A stretch of DNA of 64,000 nucleotides from Defluviicoccus sp. (GTDB lineage: Bacteria; Pseudomonadota; Alphaproteobacteria; MPNO01). The notes under the pieces are model-generated. The model ran no database searches. It was not told the origin of the DNA and saw only the letters and a list, made by a program, of their open reading frames with translations. The stretch's first letter is position 1; each line of letters starts with the position of its first letter. The stretch spans positions 1-64,000 of the forward strand of contig JAPPIT010000179.1 of NCBI GenBank assembly GCA_028820505.1, read 5' to 3'. Below, one piece after another: positions 33,744 through 42,376 of the stretch. The translations under genes were made by a program, and so were the position numbers.

Positions 33744-34106
33744 TCAGGCCGCGCTCTGCTTCCGCATCAGATACGCCGCCGTCAGGTGCTCGGCGCAGAA
33801 CTGGCGGCCCGGCTGCACCGTCTTGCCGCAGATATGGAGCCCGCAGCGGCCCGGCTGGTCGATCTGCCAGCGGCACATCCAGCTCTTGACCTCCGGCATC
33901 GGCGTGATCGGGTAGTCGATCCGGGGCGGCGGCGGTTCGGGCACGGGCTCGGGCGCGGGCGCGCCGCGCTGGAGGTTGAGGCGGTGCGCCTTGCCGATGA
34001 CGGCGTTGCGTGTGACCCCGCCGAGCTTCTCCGCGATCTGGCGCGCCGACAACCCGTCCGACCAAAGCCGCACCAGGCTGTCGACCCTCTCCGGTGTCCA
34101 GGTCAT
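33744..34106 (-). CDS. gcrA: GcrA cell cycle regulator
   Basis: 120 aa. The N-terminus is the GcrA helix-turn-helix (TWTPERVDSLVRLWSDGLSA, then RQIAEKLGG and TRNAVIGKAHRL). The middle is a proline-rich linker; the C-terminal sigma70-binding domain includes SWMCRWQIDQPG and HICGKTVQPGRQFCAEH with cysteines. GcrA joins sigma70-RNA polymerase at CcrM-methylated GANTC promoters and controls cell-cycle genes. It is specific to Alphaproteobacteria, which sets the lineage. Shorter than Caulobacter GcrA because of a short linker. Convergent with the amidase. Confidence 0.9.
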   Translation of the reverse strand: MTWTPERVDSLVRLWSDGLSARQIAEKLGGVTRNAVIGKAHRLNLQRGAPAPEPVPEPPPPRIDYPITPMPEVKSWMCRWQIDQPGRCGLHICGKTVQPGRQFCAEHLTAAYLMRKQSAA

Positions 34107-35185: not shown

Positions 35186-35968
35186 TCAGCTCAGGCGGCG
35201 GCGGGCCAGCACGCTCGCCTGCTCCACCAGCACCACCATCGCCAGCACCACGAGGGTGAGCGTCGCGACCTTCTCGTAGTGGAAGGAACGCGCGTAGAGC
35301 TGGATGTAGAAGCCGATTCCGCCGGCCCCGACCAGGCCGAGGACAAGGGATTCGCGCAGGTTGAGCTCGAAGCGGAACAGCGTGTCCCGGGCGAGCTCGG
35401 GCGCGATCTGCGGCAGGACGGCGAACCGGACGATCTGCGGCCACGCCGCCCCGGCGGTGCGCAGCGCCTCGATCGGGCCGGGCCGGGCGGCCTCGAAGGC
35501 CTCGGCGTAGAATTTCCCGAGCATTCCCGCGGAGTGGAGCGCGATCGCCGCGACCCCGGGCAGCGGGCCCAGCCCGTACGCGCTGACGAACATCAGGGCG
35601 AGCAGGATGACGGGCACGCCGCGGATCGCGCCAAGGGTCCACTTGACCGGCTGGTGGATGTAAGCCGGCGTCAGGTTGGCCGCGGCCAGCAGGCCGAACC
35701 CGACCGCCAGCACGGCACCCAGCACCGTGCCGAGCAGGGCGATCTGGACGGTCTCCAGCATCGCCCTGAAAACCACCCCCGCGATGGTGAGGTCGGGCGG
35801 CGCCATGCGGGCGAGGAATTCGCCGAGGCGCGGAAGGCCGAGGCCGAGCTTCGCCGGGTCGAACCCGGTCCCCGCCCAGGCCCAGGCGACGACCAGAACG
35901 ATGCCGAGCAGAACCGCCGCGCGGGCGAGGCTGCTACGCCACGTTGCGAGGGGAGCGTCTCTGTTCAT
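35186..35968 (-). CDS. PhnE-like ABC transporter permease
   Basis: 260 aa with about six hydrophobic segments. The binding-protein-dependent permease loop appears as EALRTAGAAWPQIVRFAVLPQI, with the EAA motif used to contact the ATPase. Overall it resembles PhnE, the phosphonate/phosphite-type permease. It overlaps the ATPase gene by 35 nt. Together with the preceding PhnC- and PhnD-like genes it forms a complete importer, which here is linked to a di-heme cytochrome and lies opposite an MntR-type regulator, so the cargo may not be a phosphonate. Confidence 0.78.
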   Translation of the reverse strand: MNRDAPLATWRSSLARAAVLLGIVLVVAWAWAGTGFDPAKLGLGLPRLGEFLARMAPPDLTIAGVVFRAMLETVQIALLGTVLGAVLAVGFGLLAAANLTPAYIHQPVKWTLGAIRGVPVILLALMFVSAYGLGPLPGVAAIALHSAGMLGKFYAEAFEAARPGPIEALRTAGAAWPQIVRFAVLPQIAPELARDTLFRFELNLRESLVLGLVGAGGIGFYIQLYARSFHYEKVATLTLVVLAMVVLVEQASVLARRRLS

Positions 35969-36764
35969 CGCCGCGCTCGCGGGCGTTGATGTCCTGAACG
36001 ATCTGCGGCGGCAGGCTGCGGCCGTAGACCCGGCGCAGCGCGGGGGCGTCGAGCGGCGCGCCGTCGGCGCTGTCGTAGACGATGCGCCCCCCCGCGAGCC
36101 CTATGACCCGGTCCGCGTGCGCGGTCGCCAGCGCCGGGTGGTGGACCGCCGCCAGGACGGCGATTTTCCGGTCCCCCGCCGGTTCCATCACCGCCCGCAG
36201 GATGTCGTCGGCGACGACGGGATCGAGGTTGCTGACCGGTTCGTCCGCGGTGATCAGGTCCGGCGCCTGGGCGAGCGCGCGGGCCACCGCGACGCGTTGG
36301 CGCTGACCGCCCGACAGCGTATCGACGCGCCGGTACGCGAACTCCGAAAGTCCCGTCGCCTCGATCGCCGCGAAGGCCGCCGCGCGGTCGTCGGCGCCGA
36401 ACCGTCCCAGAACGCTCGACAGCACCGGCGCGTGGCCCAGCCGCCCGCACAGCACGTTGCGCAGCACCGACGCGCGCTCGACCAGCTGGAATTCCTGGAA
36501 GACGGCGGCGTGGCGGCGCCGGAAGGCGCGGCGCCGCGCGGTCCTGGAGAGCGTCCGGATTCCGTCCACCGTCACGGTGCCCTCGCTCGGCGCGACCAGG
36601 CCCTGGACCGCGCGCAGCAGGGTGGTCTTGCCCGACCCGCTGGGGCCGATCACCGCCAGCCGTTCCCCCGCCGCCACCGAGAGCGCGTCGACGGTGAGCG
36701 CGGGGTTTTCGCCCGGCGCGTAACGGACCCTGAGGCCGGATATGCGGACCGCTTCCCGCGTCAC
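35934..36764 (-). CDS. PhnC-like ABC transporter ATPase
   Basis: 276 aa, GTG start overlapping the previous stop (GTGA). Walker A GPSGSGKTTLL, the Q-loop around AAVFQEFQLVERASVLRNVL, signature LSGGQRQRVAVARAL and Walker B DLITADEPVSNLD. The Q-loop sequence is the PhnC pattern. It energises import through the PhnE-like permease. The four genes cytochrome-phnD-phnC-phnE overlap at every junction, a sign of one tightly coupled operon. Confidence 0.85.
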   Translation of the reverse strand: MTREAVRISGLRVRYAPGENPALTVDALSVAAGERLAVIGPSGSGKTTLLRAVQGLVAPSEGTVTVDGIRTLSRTARRRAFRRRHAAVFQEFQLVERASVLRNVLCGRLGHAPVLSSVLGRFGADDRAAAFAAIEATGLSEFAYRRVDTLSGGQRQRVAVARALAQAPDLITADEPVSNLDPVVADDILRAVMEPAGDRKIAVLAAVHHPALATAHADRVIGLAGGRIVYDSADGAPLDAPALRRVYGRSLPPQIVQDINARERGDEQRRSPRNVA

Positions 36765-37636
36765 CTGATCAACCCGTATTTCCTGGCCATCGCCGCGACA
36801 CCGTCATAGGCGGCGCGGTCGGGCACGACATAACCCTCGGGCCCGTAGAGATGCTTCAGCAAATGGCGCTTCGCCGGCGCGTTGAGCGCCAGCATCGCCG
36901 CGAGGAAGGCGGCGCGCAACTCCGGATCGAGACCGCGCCGGGCGACCACGACGTGGGACGGGATCGGCGGCGTCCGCGCGATCGCCGCGACCTCTCCGCG
37001 CCGGCCGGCATCGAGGAGCAGCGTCGCGTAGACGCTCACCCCCGCCGCGTCCACCAGCCCGTTCGCCACCGCCTGGATCGCCTGCTGGTAGCCGCCGGCG
37101 AAATAGACCTCGCCGAAAAACGCCCTGGGGTCTCCGCGCGCCGCAAGCAGCCCCGCCTTCACGAACAGGTCCAGCGGGTAGAGGAACCCCGACTCCGAGA
37201 TCGGATCGGCGAACGCGATGGACTTGCCCCTGAGGTCTTCCAGACTCGAGATCCCGCTTCCCCGCCGCACGAAGACGGCACCGCTGTAGCTCGGCTTGCC
37301 CCGGTAGACCTCCGACAGCAGCGCCGCCGCTCCGATCCGCTCCCGCGCCATGACATAGGGCAGGGCGCCCATGAAGGCGATGTCGGCCGCCCCCGCCGCC
37401 AGGCTCTCGACGGCGGCGGCGTGGTCGGCGGTCACGCGGGCCTCGACGCGCCGGCCCATCGCGGCCTCCAGATAGAGGTCGATCGCGCGAACGTCGCCGA
37501 GCAGTTTCTCCGGGTTCTCCTGGGGCACGAAGGCGAGCACGAGCGGCCTGTCCGCGGCCGCCGCCGGTCCGATGGCGAACGCGACCAGCGCGGCCGCGAG
37601 CCCCCTGCCCAGGCGTTCAGTAAATCTCGGCCGCAT
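36761..37636 (-). CDS. PhnD-like periplasmic substrate-binding protein
   Basis: 291 aa with a signal peptide ending near GPAAAA. The fold is PhnD/SsuA-like: LVLAFVPQENPEKLLGDV at the mature N-terminus, the binding loop ADIAFMGALPYVMA, and GKSIAFADPISESGFLYPLD with the Ser-rich anion site typical of PhnD. Paralogues bind phosphonate, phosphite or arsenite, and others are uncharacterised. Here it begins 20 nt inside the 3' end of a di-heme cytochrome gene, so they are co-translated. Ligand unknown. Confidence 0.78.
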   Translation of the reverse strand: MRPRFTERLGRGLAAALVAFAIGPAAAADRPLVLAFVPQENPEKLLGDVRAIDLYLEAAMGRRVEARVTADHAAAVESLAAGAADIAFMGALPYVMARERIGAAALLSEVYRGKPSYSGAVFVRRGSGISSLEDLRGKSIAFADPISESGFLYPLDLFVKAGLLAARGDPRAFFGEVYFAGGYQQAIQAVANGLVDAAGVSVYATLLLDAGRRGEVAAIARTPPIPSHVVVARRGLDPELRAAFLAAMLALNAPAKRHLLKHLYGPEGYVVPDRAAYDGVAAMARKYGLIR

Positions 37637-39461
37637 GGCGCGCCTCTGTCCGCTTGTATTGCGCCCATAACCGCTCGGCGGCCGGCCAGTCCTTCGCCGC
37701 GATCGCGTCCGAAATGGCGTCGATCCTCCCCGCGAGCTCGTTCACGCGGGCGAGCGCGGCGGTGTTGGCCATCCCCGCCGCATCGGCGCGCAGGTCGCGG
37801 CCGACCGTCTCGAGGAGAAGCAGCGCGTGCCGCCGGTCCCGCGCGGGGATCAGCGTCTCCAGCGTCGACAGGAAGGTCGACGCCTCGTCGAAGCCGAGCC
37901 TGAACCGCGTGTTCTTCCCGGCGAACGCCTCAAAAGGTTGCTCGCCGGTGCCGACCGCTTCGAGATAGGCGGTGAGGTCGGCCCGCTCTCCCGCATCGAG
38001 GCCGAGCCCGTACCGCCGGTCGAACCAGTCGACGACCGCGGCGAGGGTCGGCACCGAGCCGTCGTGGAAATAGGGCGCGGTGTAGAGGCTCCCCAGCAGC
38101 GTCGGCGTGTCGAGCGCGCCGTCCCTGGCGTGCGGCGAGGCCGGCGCGACCGAGCCGATGTCGTGGCGCCGTCCGTCGACGAAATTGCCGTCCGGGATGT
38201 GGCACGAAGCGCAGGACCGGCCCGCCATCGCGGCGAAGGGGCGGTTGAAGATCGCCTCCCCGCGCCTGGCGGCGGCGCTCGCGCGCTCGTTCAGGGTCCC
38301 GTCGCGCGCCAGCAGCGGCGCCGGCAGGAAGTCGAACTCGTTCATGTAGGCGACCAGCGCATCGAGCATCAGCGGCGACGGTTCCGGCCCGCCCAGCTCA
38401 CCCACGATCACGTTGCGCGCGAATTCGCGGAGGCTTCCCATCCTGCCGTTCCGGCCGTAGGGCGCGGTGAAGCGGATGCCCCGCAGGCTCGGCACGTCCA
38501 GCGGGTCGAGCCGCCTGTCGTTGCCGCGCGGGTCGAAGAACCCGTTGTCGATATCGATCCCGCCCGCGCGGCGGCTGAGCCCCGGCACGAACAGCGCCCG
38601 GTTGACGTCGCCCCGGTTGTGGCAGGACGAGCAGGCGAAGCCGAGCGCGCGGGCGCGGGGGCCGAGGATCTCCGGCGAATCGAACAGCATGTCCCCGTAG
38701 GCGACGAGGAAGAGCCGCTTCTCGTCGACTCCCCGCTGCTCGAAGTTGAGCACCAGGCGGGGCAGGGGTTCCTGCTCGCGCAACGCGCCTCCGGGCGGAA
38801 GCCGGCCGGCGGGAGGCAAAGGCGGCTTTCCCCCCTCGAAGCGCGCGCGGACCGCCTCGCCCAGCATCCCGATCAGCCGTTCCGCCTCGCCCCCGTCGCC
38901 CGCGCGGGAGAGCACGGTGGTGAGCGAGAGCCAGGCGAGCCCCAGCCGGCGGTGGGCGTCGGGGTCGCTCGCCCGCAGCGCCGCCTCGAACCCCCGGTAG
39001 ATGCCGCGCGCGGCGCCGAGCTCCGCCAGCGCGGCACGCGGCCGGTCGAGCAGGCCGCGGACGTTCTCCAGCCGGGCGCGCAGCGCAATCGCGTTGGCGC
39101 GGGCCGCCGCCGTCCTCAGCCGCTCCGCGTCGCGCGCCGCGATCGCCCGGCGGATCGCCGCGCCCGGATCGCCGCCGGCGAAATCCGACAGCCGCGCCAG
39201 GACGGTCAGCGCGGAGGCGGCGCCGACATGGAGGTAAACCGGGTCGGCGCTTCCATAGCGGCGGGCGATCCCCTCCCAGTCCACCGGGTCGAGGCGGCTC
39301 GCGAAGACCGCGTCGAGATAGGCGGCGGCCAGCGGATGCCACTGCTCGCGGCTCGCGACATGGGCGGTCGCCGGGTTCGCCGCCGTCAGGACGAGGCAAA
39401 GCGCGGCGGCGACCCAAACGGTCCGCCGGAACACTCCGGGATACAAGCGCCGTCCCCACAT
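37617..39461 (-). CDS. Di-heme c-type cytochrome (CCP/MauG-like) with helical extensions
   Basis: 614 aa, signal peptide ending TAANPATAH. Residues about 35-240 are an Ala/Arg-rich helical domain. Heme site 1 is Cys277-Ser-Ser-Cys-His281 and heme site 2 Cys417-Ala-Ser-Cys-His421, within a cytochrome c peroxidase/MauG-like core (TAPYGRNGRMGSLREFA and TAPYFHDGSVPTLAAVV). Another helical region follows to the C-terminus. It is longer than a usual di-heme peroxidase (about 330-400 aa). Periplasmic; probably an oxidase or peroxidase acting on a metal or on the cargo of the downstream PhnD-like transporter. First gene of the operon, divergent from the MntR-like gene by 126 bp. Confidence 0.75.
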   Translation of the reverse strand: MWGRRLYPGVFRRTVWVAAALCLVLTAANPATAHVASREQWHPLAAAYLDAVFASRLDPVDWEGIARRYGSADPVYLHVGAASALTVLARLSDFAGGDPGAAIRRAIAARDAERLRTAAARANAIALRARLENVRGLLDRPRAALAELGAARGIYRGFEAALRASDPDAHRRLGLAWLSLTTVLSRAGDGGEAERLIGMLGEAVRARFEGGKPPLPPAGRLPPGGALREQEPLPRLVLNFEQRGVDEKRLFLVAYGDMLFDSPEILGPRARALGFACSSCHNRGDVNRALFVPGLSRRAGGIDIDNGFFDPRGNDRRLDPLDVPSLRGIRFTAPYGRNGRMGSLREFARNVIVGELGGPEPSPLMLDALVAYMNEFDFLPAPLLARDGTLNERASAAARRGEAIFNRPFAAMAGRSCASCHIPDGNFVDGRRHDIGSVAPASPHARDGALDTPTLLGSLYTAPYFHDGSVPTLAAVVDWFDRRYGLGLDAGERADLTAYLEAVGTGEQPFEAFAGKNTRFRLGFDEASTFLSTLETLIPARDRRHALLLLETVGRDLRADAAGMANTAALARVNELAGRIDAISDAIAAKDWPAAERLWAQYKRTEARHAAEIY

Positions 39462-39485
39462 CGATCTTGCCCGATGCTGAACTAT

Positions 39486-39518
39486 TTAACCTTGGCTAAC
39501 TTATTTGGCTCTGGCCAA
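39486..39518. promoter_or_regulatory. Candidate operator in the mntR/cytochrome divergent region
   Basis: Two adjacent dyads: TTAACCTTGGCTAA (one mismatch) at 39486-39499 and TTGGCTCTGGCCAA (5-4-5) at 39505-39518. They sit between the divergent starts and are AT-richer than the surroundings. They are plausible MntR-type binding sites controlling both directions; the match to a known consensus is not verified. Confidence 0.45.
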
Positions 39519-39587
39519 GAATTGTCAAGCCGCCCGGCATTCGGCATAGTCGGAAAGAGGCGGATCGAAGTGCCGCGAGGGGACCCG

Positions 39588-40058
39588 GTGGCGAAGAAGA
39601 CGCGCAGGAGGCCGCCCACGGTGGCGCCGGTGCTCGTCGAGCCCGACGAGCAGGCGGATCATCACCGCCAGACCCGGCTCGCGCGCCAGACCGAGATCGC
39701 CGAGGACTATGTCGAGCTGATCGCCGACCTGATCGACTCGACCGGCGAGGCGCGGTCCGCCGATATCTCGCGCCGCCTCGGCGTGACCCATGCGAGCGTC
39801 ACCAAGATGGTCGCCCGGCTGCAGCAGAGCGGCCTGGTCACCACGCAGCCCTATCGCGCGATCTTCCTGACCGACGAGGGGCGGCGCATCGCCGAGGAGT
39901 CCCGGCGGCGGCACCAGATCGTGGTCGCGTTCCTCCAGGCGATCGGCGTCAGCGAGGACGTCGCGCGCGCCGACGCGGAGGGCATCGAGCACCATGTCAG
40001 CGAGGAAACCCTCGCCGCGTTCGAGCGCGTGGTGACCGAGCGGGGGCGGAGCAGCTGA
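39588..40058 (+). CDS. mntR: MntR-like manganese-responsive regulator (DtxR family)
   Basis: 156 aa from the GTG at 39588, with GAGGGG 6 nt upstream. TEIAEDYVELIADLIDSTGE leads into the winged HTH (DISRRLGVTHASVTKMVARL, then QQSGLVTTQPYRAIFLTDEG). The dimer/metal domain has RRRHQIVVAFLQAIGVS and DAEGIEHHVSEETLAAF, whose Asp, Glu, His, His and Glu are the metal ligands of MntR. This points to Mn(II)-dependent repression. It is divergent from the cytochrome-PhnDCE operon, its most likely target besides itself. Its stop overlaps the next gene's coding region. Confidence 0.82.
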   Translation: MAKKTRRRPPTVAPVLVEPDEQADHHRQTRLARQTEIAEDYVELIADLIDSTGEARSADISRRLGVTHASVTKMVARLQQSGLVTTQPYRAIFLTDEGRRIAEESRRRHQIVVAFLQAIGVSEDVARADAEGIEHHVSEETLAAFERVVTERGRSS

Positions 40059-40117: not shown

Positions 40118-42376
40118 GTGGGGCGCTTCGTCGACGACATCCACCTGCCCGGCATGCTGCATGCCTGTTTCGTCAGGAGCCCGTTCGCGCATGCCGAAAT
40201 CGCCGGCATCGACACGGAGGCGGCAAAGTCGGCCCCGGGCGTAACGGCGGTGCTGACCCATGCCGACCTCGCTCCGCATCTTGCCGTCAAGCGGCTGGTC
40301 ACGGCGCTGCCGAGCGATGCCTACCGGCATATTCTCGACCGGCAGATCCTGGCCGAGGACGAGGTGTGCCATGTCGGCGAGCCGGTCGCCGTGGTCGTCG
40401 CCGCCGACCGCTACGCGGCCGAGGACGCCGCCGCTCTGGTAGACATCGACTACAGCGCCCTTCCCGCCGTGTCGGACTGCCGCGACGCGCTGGCGCCGGA
40501 CGCCCCGGGCGCGCACCGCCGTCTCGACGACAATCTGCTGGCGGAATACGAGATCGGCTACGGCGACGTCGACGCCGCCTTCGCCGCCGCCGCGCACCGG
40601 GTCTCCGTGTCGCTCCGCCAGCACAAGGGGCTCGGGCTCGCGATCGAATGCCGCGGCGTCGTCGCCGCGCCCGATCCGCTCGACGACCGCCTGACGATCT
40701 GGCTGTCCTGCCAGGCGCCGCACGGCGCGCTCCGCGCCCTGGTGGCGGCGCTGGGGCTCGACGAGCGCCGGATCGTCGTCCGCGCCGCCGATCTCGGCGG
40801 CGGTTTCGGACCCAAGCTCGTCGTCTATCCCGAGGACATCGCGGTCGCGCACGCGGCGCGCCGGCTGGGGCGGCCCGTCAAGTGGATCGAGGACCGGCGC
40901 GAGCACTTCACCGCCACCACCCAGGAACGCGACCAGTATTGGGACATGGAAGCGGCGGTCGACGGGGACGGGCGGCTGCTCGCGGTCCGGGGGACGATGA
41001 TCCACGACCACGGCGCCTATACCGCGCGCGGCCTCAACCTCTCCTACAACGCCGCGACCGTGGTTCCCGGACCGTATCGCCTGCCGGCCTATCGCCTCGC
41101 GGTGCGGGCGGCGGTGACCAACAAGGTGCCGACCACGCCGGTCCGCGGCGCCGGCCACCCGCAAGGCACGTTCGCGATGGAGCGGATCGTCGATCGCGTC
41201 GCCGCGACGCTCGGCCTGCCTCGCGAAGAGGTGCGGCGGAGGAATTTCATCGGGGCGGAAGAGATGCCCTATGCCCGCCCGCTCAAGGCGCGCAGCGGCA
41301 CCGGGATCGTGCTCGACAGCGGCGACTACCCGGCCTGCCTGGAGGCCGCGCTCGACGCCGCCGGCATGGCGGATTTCCGCGCGCGGCAGGCGGCGGCGCG
41401 CGCGGAAGGGCGTCATCTCGGCATCGGGCTCGCCAACTACGTCAAGGGCACCGGGCGCGGCCCGTTCGAGGCGGTGACCGTGCGCGTCGCCCCGTCGGGA
41501 CGGGTGAGCCTGATCACCGGCGCCACCGCCATCGGGCAGGGCACGCGCACCATGCTGGCCCAGATCTGCGCCGACCGCCTCGGCGTCGACCCCGGATCGA
41601 TCGAGGTGGTCATGGGGGACACCGGCGCCATCGCCATGGGCATCGGCGCCTCGGCCAGCCGCCAGGCGGTCAACGCCGGCTCGTCCGCGCTGGTGGCGGC
41701 GCGCGAGGTCGCCGACAAGCTGAGAACCCTCGCCGCCGGACGGCTGGAAGCGGCGCCCGACGATATCGAGCTGGTGGACGGAAGCGCGCGGGTCCGGGGC
41801 GTCGCCGAGCTCTCGGTCGGCTTCCCGGAGCTCGCCAATGCGGTCTACGGCACCCCGGGCTACGCCCTGCCGGCCGGCGCGGCGCCCGGGCTGGAGGCGA
41901 CCGCGGCGGTGCCGTTCGACGCGCTGAGCTACGCCAACGGCTGCCATGTCGCCGAGGTCGAGGCCGATCCCGAGACCGGCCGCGTGACGATCCTCCGCTA
42001 TATCGTCGTCCATGACAGCGGTCGCATGATCAACCCGGCGATCGTCGACGGCCAGGTCCAGGGTGGCGTCGCGCACGGTCTCGGCAATGCGATCCTCGAG
42101 CGAATCGCGTTCGACCGCGATGCCCAGCCGCTCACGACGACGCTCGCGGACTACACGATCGCCGGCGCGTGCGAGCTGCCGTCCATCGCGATCGTCCACC
42201 TCGATTCGCCGACCGAACACAACCCGCTCGGCGTGAAGGGGGTGGGGGAGAGCGGCACGGTGCCGGCGACGGCCGCGCTGGCCGCGGCGGTCGAGGACGC
42301 GCTCGCGCCGTTTGCGGTCGAGGTGGATGAGGTTCCCTTGCGCCCCGACCGGCTGGCCCTGGCCGCCTCCGGCTGA
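40118..42376 (+). CDS. Molybdopterin-binding subunit, xanthine dehydrogenase/CoxL family
   Basis: 752 aa from the first GTG. The family's conserved start (IGKPIARLEDPALLRG, then GRFVDDIHLPGMLHACFVRS) actually begins upstream at about 40055, in frame and with no ATG, GTG or TTG, so the true start may be a CTG at 40055 or 40067 overlapping the mntR stop. Form II active-site motif VRGAGHPQGTFAMERI; the Mo-cofactor motif GGGFGPKL is present and the catalytic Glu region ends KGVGESGTVPATAALAAAV. No FAD or 2Fe-2S subunit genes are adjacent. It hydroxylates or oxidises an unknown heteroaromatic or aldehyde. Confidence 0.75.
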   Translation: MGRFVDDIHLPGMLHACFVRSPFAHAEIAGIDTEAAKSAPGVTAVLTHADLAPHLAVKRLVTALPSDAYRHILDRQILAEDEVCHVGEPVAVVVAADRYAAEDAAALVDIDYSALPAVSDCRDALAPDAPGAHRRLDDNLLAEYEIGYGDVDAAFAAAAHRVSVSLRQHKGLGLAIECRGVVAAPDPLDDRLTIWLSCQAPHGALRALVAALGLDERRIVVRAADLGGGFGPKLVVYPEDIAVAHAARRLGRPVKWIEDRREHFTATTQERDQYWDMEAAVDGDGRLLAVRGTMIHDHGAYTARGLNLSYNAATVVPGPYRLPAYRLAVRAAVTNKVPTTPVRGAGHPQGTFAMERIVDRVAATLGLPREEVRRRNFIGAEEMPYARPLKARSGTGIVLDSGDYPACLEAALDAAGMADFRARQAAARAEGRHLGIGLANYVKGTGRGPFEAVTVRVAPSGRVSLITGATAIGQGTRTMLAQICADRLGVDPGSIEVVMGDTGAIAMGIGASASRQAVNAGSSALVAAREVADKLRTLAAGRLEAAPDDIELVDGSARVRGVAELSVGFPELANAVYGTPGYALPAGAAPGLEATAAVPFDALSYANGCHVAEVEADPETGRVTILRYIVVHDSGRMINPAIVDGQVQGGVAHGLGNAILERIAFDRDAQPLTTTLADYTIAGACELPSIAIVHLDSPTEHNPLGVKGVGESGTVPATAALAAAVEDALAPFAVEVDEVPLRPDRLALAASG

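Follow-up and report, generated by a model that had tools for sequence, protein, structure and literature searches.

The phosphite and phosphonate importers of the PtxB/PhnD type consist of a PF12974 binding protein, an ATPase and a permease. The operon described here, which lies in a 64,000-nucleotide stretch of DNA (the window) from a metagenome-assembled genome (MAG) of Defluviicoccus sp. (contig JAPPIT010000179.1), shares with them this set of components, the family and the fold (Z 25-28 to PtxB, PhnD and HtxB), but differs in its His/Glu/Tyr/His pocket, its leading gene for a di-heme cytochrome and its manganese (Mn)-type regulator. SitABCD and MntH resemble it in adjoining MntR within the same bacterial family, but they belong to other protein families (PF01297 and PF01566, respectively) and have no cytochrome. 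The arsenic-binding PhnD relatives AioX and ArrX are among the best-ranking fold matches of the binding protein (Z 27-29.5) and likewise represent a PhnD fold adapted to another ligand, although they are parts of sensing systems; the SFS loop and His of ArrX correspond to SES and Tyr in the module. Iron uptake systems of the EfeUOB and FTR1 types, which have periplasmic heme or cytochrome parts, follow a similar principle in that a redox protein of the periplasm serves the importer, whereas their transporters and binding proteins are unrelated and Mn-type control is present only in the module. MauG, MbnH and cytochrome c peroxidases have the di-heme core (PF03150) in common with the module cytochrome, which, however, scores far below the equivalog cut-offs (33.2 against 443.85 for TTQ_mauG, 51.2 against 362.85 for the MbnH family) and has long helical parts at both ends. 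The literature searched contained no paper on a cyt-phnDCE/mntR operon, although work published in 2006 on Mn regulation in alphaproteobacteria may already contain such a prediction.

The operon comprises four minus-strand genes, encoding the cytochrome (cyt) and PhnD-, PhnC- and PhnE-like proteins, and mntR is divergent from it on the plus strand (Table 1). As stated in the original prediction, every junction overlaps (cyt/phnD-like by 20 nt, phnD-like/phnC-like by 4 nt and phnC-like/phnE-like by 35 nt) and the CXXCH heme sites lie at residues 277 (CSSCH) and 417 (CASCH); the cytochrome, described there as fused with the importer, is instead encoded by a separate, overlapping gene. This module is probably a Mn-repressed metal importer, most likely for Mn itself, in which a di-heme redox enzyme in the periplasm would assist a transferrin-like metal-plus-anion site. 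An ATP-binding cassette (ABC) metal importer of a new variety, and not an ordinary phosphonate operon, is the best reading of the locus and one that we hold with some confidence.

Named genomes were scanned with five aligned cytochromes, which recovered 130 relatives; the 80 best of these were retained. The phnD-like gene was present in 78 of these loci, phnC in 75 and phnE in 71, the gaps falling at contig ends, and a divergent MntR was present in 67, so that the five-gene neighbourhood, the conservation of which had been proposed as a check, is indeed conserved. In two loci, both of Dadabacteria, a DtxR-type gene precedes the operon in the same orientation, and 11 loci have no MntR match; in three of the latter the contig begins in or near cyt. 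The hosts include many Rhodobacterales, Hyphomicrobiales, gammaproteobacterial MAGs, Dadabacteria and Acidobacteriota, and the recurrence of the neighbourhood across these groups exceeds chance. The closest named relatives are Defluviicoccus, and their cytochromes share 77-86% identity with that of the window along the entire protein; each of the five genomes sampled from the genus has a match to the cytochrome, and the sixth genome of the family, from another genus, gave no match. In a tree of 53 proteins (49 of the protein family and four controls) the family is separate from the controls. A search of viral contigs found no relative.

The phosphite ligands of Trichodesmium PtxB are Y55, Y100, S130, T131, S132 and H160, with cap Y208 and D22, according to PMC5700983. 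In the alignment, Y55 corresponds to H72 of the module protein, Y100 to Y117, S130 to S147, T131 to E148, S132 to S149, H160 to Y183, Y208 to H228 and D22 to Q39, and all eight module residues are invariant among 39 aligned sequences. Thus, in place of the STS-H phosphite motif and its capping residue, the module has invariant SES, Tyr183 and a His228 cap. All six control PhnD-like proteins from elsewhere keep Y, Y, S-(T/A)-S and H, and two plasmid copies of the module have the pocket of the module family. The predicted pocket is shown by this comparison to be unlike those of phosphite and phosphonate binders, and since a Glu residue would stand in the anion-holding loop, a free oxyanion is an unlikely ligand. 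The two His, the Glu and the two Tyr placed by alignment around the kept helix start would rather resemble a metal-plus-anion site, as is known from transferrins and ferric-binding proteins. The original prediction had envisaged a ligand other than phosphonate or phosphite, either a metal complex or an oxyanion, taken up under possible Mn control: the pocket evidence speaks against phosphonate and phosphite and for a metal, and on the whole the prediction is supported. The predicted structure of the binding protein (predicted local distance difference test, pLDDT, 88.8) matches ArrX, PtxB, AioX and PhnD with Z of 25-29.5 and transferrins with Z of about 22-23, but a fold likeness by itself reveals no function. 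The family search, which assigned the protein to PF12974, gave no match to PF01297.

The second line of evidence is a palindrome, TTAGCC-N2-G(G/T)CTAA, which immediately follows the -10 element. It precedes cyt in all 68 loci with a divergent MntR (the 67 above and L057), with 12 or 13 of the 13 specified positions of the pattern TTAGMCNNGKYTAAM, and each of these boxes scores better than 95 or more of 100 Markov shuffles; in the 11 loci that lack a divergent MntR, no sequence before cyt reaches 12 matching positions (three loci whose upstream sequence was too short are not counted). The pattern was derived from the same 68 loci, and the independent tests are therefore a whole-genome search, the boxes of longer operons and the co-occurrence with PF02742. 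The strict search of 15 genomes gave 18 matches in 12 of them, all 18 between mntR and cyt; the control pattern, the box read backwards, gave 20 matches in the same genomes (count only). Among the three genomes with no strict match, G003 and G788 (L135) have a variant box and G129 has none. In Dadabacteria (L062, L080) and Acidobacteriota (L064, L081) the box precedes not cyt but the first gene of a longer operon, which encodes an outer-membrane-barrel-like protein. In Acidobacteriota this protein belongs to PF13557 (L064 4124-4933, L081 8118-8933) and may act as a channel in the outer membrane for the same metal; a family search with the lead gene of Dadabacteria found no family. When 11 genomes were searched for PF02742, the box and a DtxR-family gene occurred together in four (G000, G749, G762 and G975) and neither was present in seven. 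TTGACA was read by eye in 20 of 23 promoters, including two of Dadabacteria, and the operator adjoins the -10 element of the TTGACA promoter from Defluviicoccus through Dadabacteria, so that a bound repressor would block the start of transcription. The consensus scan for promoters, whose -10 rule requires T at position 6, did not list the cyt promoter. The E. coli MntR box has the core TAGC-N4-GCTA in common with the palindrome. The dyads and candidate MntR site originally placed between the two starts (39486-39518) would thus correspond to a conserved MntR-type box at 39485-39499, on the promoter. As far as sequence comparison goes, this regulatory architecture, an MntR-type operator on the module promoter, is well supported.

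The regulator itself was rightly assigned to the MntR-type members of the DtxR family: it scores 204.6 bits with PRK11050, over the equivalog cut-off of 153, and no other PF02742 protein occurs in the assembly. Its residues D46, E49, H115, E137, E140 and H141 are at least 95% conserved and, in a mapping by eye, would correspond to the metal ligands D8, E11, H77, E99, E102 and H103 of B. subtilis MntR. The use of MntR was followed in 199 genomes of one family, that of G599, whose protein is found among the roseobacters in the 53-protein tree. The module is present in at least 11 of them, a lower bound because the first look scored at most six candidates per genome, and MntR over the cut-off occurs in 11 of 11 module genomes compared with 24 of the 188 others. 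The 42 places of such MntR adjoin Nramp in 17 cases (16 read and one taken by coordinates), SitA in three, the module in 11 (10 read and one from the 80-locus set) and other genes in 11. As 31 of the 42 neighbours are Nramp, SitA or the module, the module takes a place that in this family is otherwise held mostly by Mn importers. Seven of the 11 other places were read by eye, with multicopper-oxidase-like genes at L237, L240 and L247, P-type ATPases at L249 and L268 and nothing recognised at L243 and L252; the remaining four places are L248, L269, L270 and L271. The five MntR copies with recognised neighbours in this alphaproteobacterial family stand in metal-handling clusters with no recognised Mn importer. 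A strict replacement of other Mn importers by the module was considered and rejected (Nramp over the cut-off is present in 0 of 11 module genomes and in 31 of the 188 remaining ones, Fisher p 0.22). One PF01297 protein combined with a lack of Nramp was found in 4 of 11 module genomes and 23 of 188 others (p 0.046), the counts behind both tests being read by eye from tables. In another count, 4 of 46 module-carrying genomes have Nramp over the cut-off.

At some loci other kinds of metal regulator stand in for the divergent MntR. A Fur-family gene directly adjoins cyt in L063, L068 and L115, and in the last two mntH (NCBIfam MntH, 639 and 642 bits) is divergent from it; these Fur-family proteins are below every equivalog cut-off, so that Fur and Mur are not distinguishable. 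The upstream regulator of Dadabacteria L062 is of DtxR/MntR type with a FeoA domain, is nearest to an MntR model (211.5 bits, below the cut-off of 350) and is accompanied by a FeoA-domain gene downstream of the operon, and in L065 an ArsR-like gene, recognised by eye, lies slightly downstream. The FeoA gene and the three Fur-family genes might indicate that the import serves Fe(III) iron, a different metal or a metal chelate, and that Mn is only the shortage signal perceived by MntR. The transferrins among the fold matches would agree with this, as would the fact that Fe(III) is the best-known ligand of Tyr/His/Glu sites in type II binding proteins. We regard it as unlikely, since the commonest dedicated regulator is a Mn-type MntR with its box and mntH is near two loci that lack MntR.

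The cytochrome has a signal-like N-terminus and a CCP_MauG/RoxA-like core between helical N- and C-terminal parts, and 42 of 42 relatives match PF03150 with E-values no higher than 0.5. Its model is poor in the heme core (mean pLDDT 64.8). The modelled C-terminal part matches PsbQ and other bundles with a best Z of 13.3, the level expected of common helical arrangements, and so no function was drawn from it; imelysin-type families are not among the matches listed, an absence that excludes nothing. Membership of the CCP_MauG family may suggest a peroxidase that guards Mn-starved cells from hydrogen peroxide, the more so as Mn-dependent antioxidant enzymes are weakened by Mn shortage, and the transporter would then be a separate Mn-regulated passenger. 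This is rather improbable, because cyt and phnD are adjacent in all 78 loci where the contig extends to phnD, and because the solitary two-heme relatives are shorter. Relatives without PhnDCE are scattered and share only lineage-specific neighbours; six of them (L036, L037, L038, L042, L044 and L045) were seen at unrelated loci of other alphaproteobacteria.

It might also be supposed that phosphonate, phosphite or another oxyanion, oxidised or reduced by the cytochrome, is imported by a system that is only incidentally under Mn control. The binding protein belongs to PF12974, keeps the Ser-x-Ser helix start and exceeds the broad TIGR01098 cut-off (158.4 against 112.05 bits), and the permease exceeds that of TIGR01097. 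The binding protein is below the PhnD equivalog TIGR03431 cut-off (151.3 against 261.1 bits), and the ATPase scores 225.7 bits with TIGR02315, under its cut-off of 266.1. The invariant acidic Glu148 in the anion loop, the loss of the Tyr55/His160/Tyr208 set and the adjacent metal regulators of several families make this explanation improbable.

The cytochrome was also found on 43 plasmid records, of which 36 are conjugative or mobilizable; the annotation of Phaeobacter inhibens pP54_b, for example, lists mntR, a cytochrome c peroxidase, a phosphonate-type binding protein, an ATPase and phnE. On the two roseobacter plasmids that were read (L280 1-19428 and L281) the module lies in a common block with SCO, an M23 peptidase, DUF411, ZIP, lspA, lnt and a P-type ATPase. 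This mobility and the ZIP, DUF411 and P-type ATPase genes might suggest that the module is part of an island for heavy-metal resistance and deals with a toxic metal, not with nutrition. This is very doubtful, as the gene set is of importer type and neither the loci of Dadabacteria and Acidobacteriota nor the flanks of the window showed an island of this kind.

For a Mn-repressed metal importer the following mechanism may be proposed. MntR loaded with Mn(II) would occupy the box over the start of the cyt operon and repress it, the response to Mn being our inference, and Mn shortage would lead to derepression. The PhnD-type protein would then capture a metal, most likely Mn judging by the aligned positions, in the periplasm, holding the ion by His72, Glu148, Tyr183 and His228 and a synergistic anion at the Ser147/Ser149 helix start, with Tyr117 kept; PhnC and PhnE would import it. 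The di-heme cytochrome might alter the redox state of the same metal in the periplasm for its capture or release, which is the least certain step. Both the ligand and the role of the cytochrome are inferred from sequence. As a Tyr-containing site would favour a trivalent ion, Mn(II) might be oxidised before capture, and reduction of Mn(III) or Mn oxide before capture is equally possible. Thus, it may tentatively be supposed, although we consider it somewhat unlikely in this full form, that the module represents a new class of Mn importer, a phosphonate-type ABC system with a binding protein whose transferrin-like site holds trivalent Mn (or Mn and a synergistic anion) and is loaded by the di-heme enzyme, co-transcribed with it, through oxidation of Mn(II) in the periplasm; such oxidation-coupled uptake, as in fungal iron transport, would occur in at least three phyla and be spreading on roseobacter plasmids.

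Several points weigh against a Mn importer. The assignment of pocket residues depends on alignment, and the permease still scores as PhnE (TIGR01097, 255.2 bits against 216.7). The rule that MntR always faces a Mn importer was rejected, as 11 of its 42 places in the G599 family face other genes. More than one PF01297 protein is present in 7 of the 11 module genomes of that family, so that the module is often not the sole candidate Mn importer and replacement is at most partial. No metal regulator adjoins the operon in L035, L066 and L100, where the neighbouring genes were read. The metal-handling genes (P-type ATPase, ZIP and DUF411) beside the module on the two roseobacter plasmids would also fit another metal.

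Automatic annotation labels the genes of the module as phosphonate transport and cytochrome c peroxidase. If it imports Mn, counts of marine phosphonate genes include metal transporters, and many bacteria have a Mn uptake route that was hitherto unrecognised; an oxyanion-binding fold would have been converted to a metal binder, and a periplasmic di-heme enzyme would have gained a part in supplying metal. With its invariant pocket and one dedicated operator, the module lends itself to direct testing of this proposal in strains that can be cultured, for example Phaeobacter inhibens.

Table 1. Features of the module in the window (positions in the 64,000-nucleotide stretch)
Feature	Position	Strand	Remarks
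cyt, long di-heme cytochrome	37617-39461	-	614 aa; PF03150 and PF21419 over cut-off
PhnD-type substrate-binding protein, putatively remodelled pocket	36761-37636	-	PF12974, 201.8 bits
PhnC-type ABC ATPase	35934-36764	-	GTG start; PF00005
PhnE-type ABC permease	35186-35968	-	TIGR01097 over cut-off
mntR, DtxR-family Mn-type regulator	39570-40058	+	GTG start; NCBIfam PRK11050
Predicted MntR-type operator TTAGCCAAGGTTAAA	39485-39499	-	sole TTAGMCNNGKYTAAM match in the 5.49-Mb assembly
Predicted cyt operon promoter	39500-39528	-	TTGACA 39523-39528, 17-nt spacer, AATAAG 39500-39505; by eye

The flanks of the module in the window were read by eye. About 60 bases past mntR, a long open reading frame on the plus strand (40118-42376) has the look of a xanthine-dehydrogenase/CoxL-type molybdoenzyme, and the minus strand encodes, at 33744-34106, a small protein similar to GcrA, a regulator of the cell cycle.

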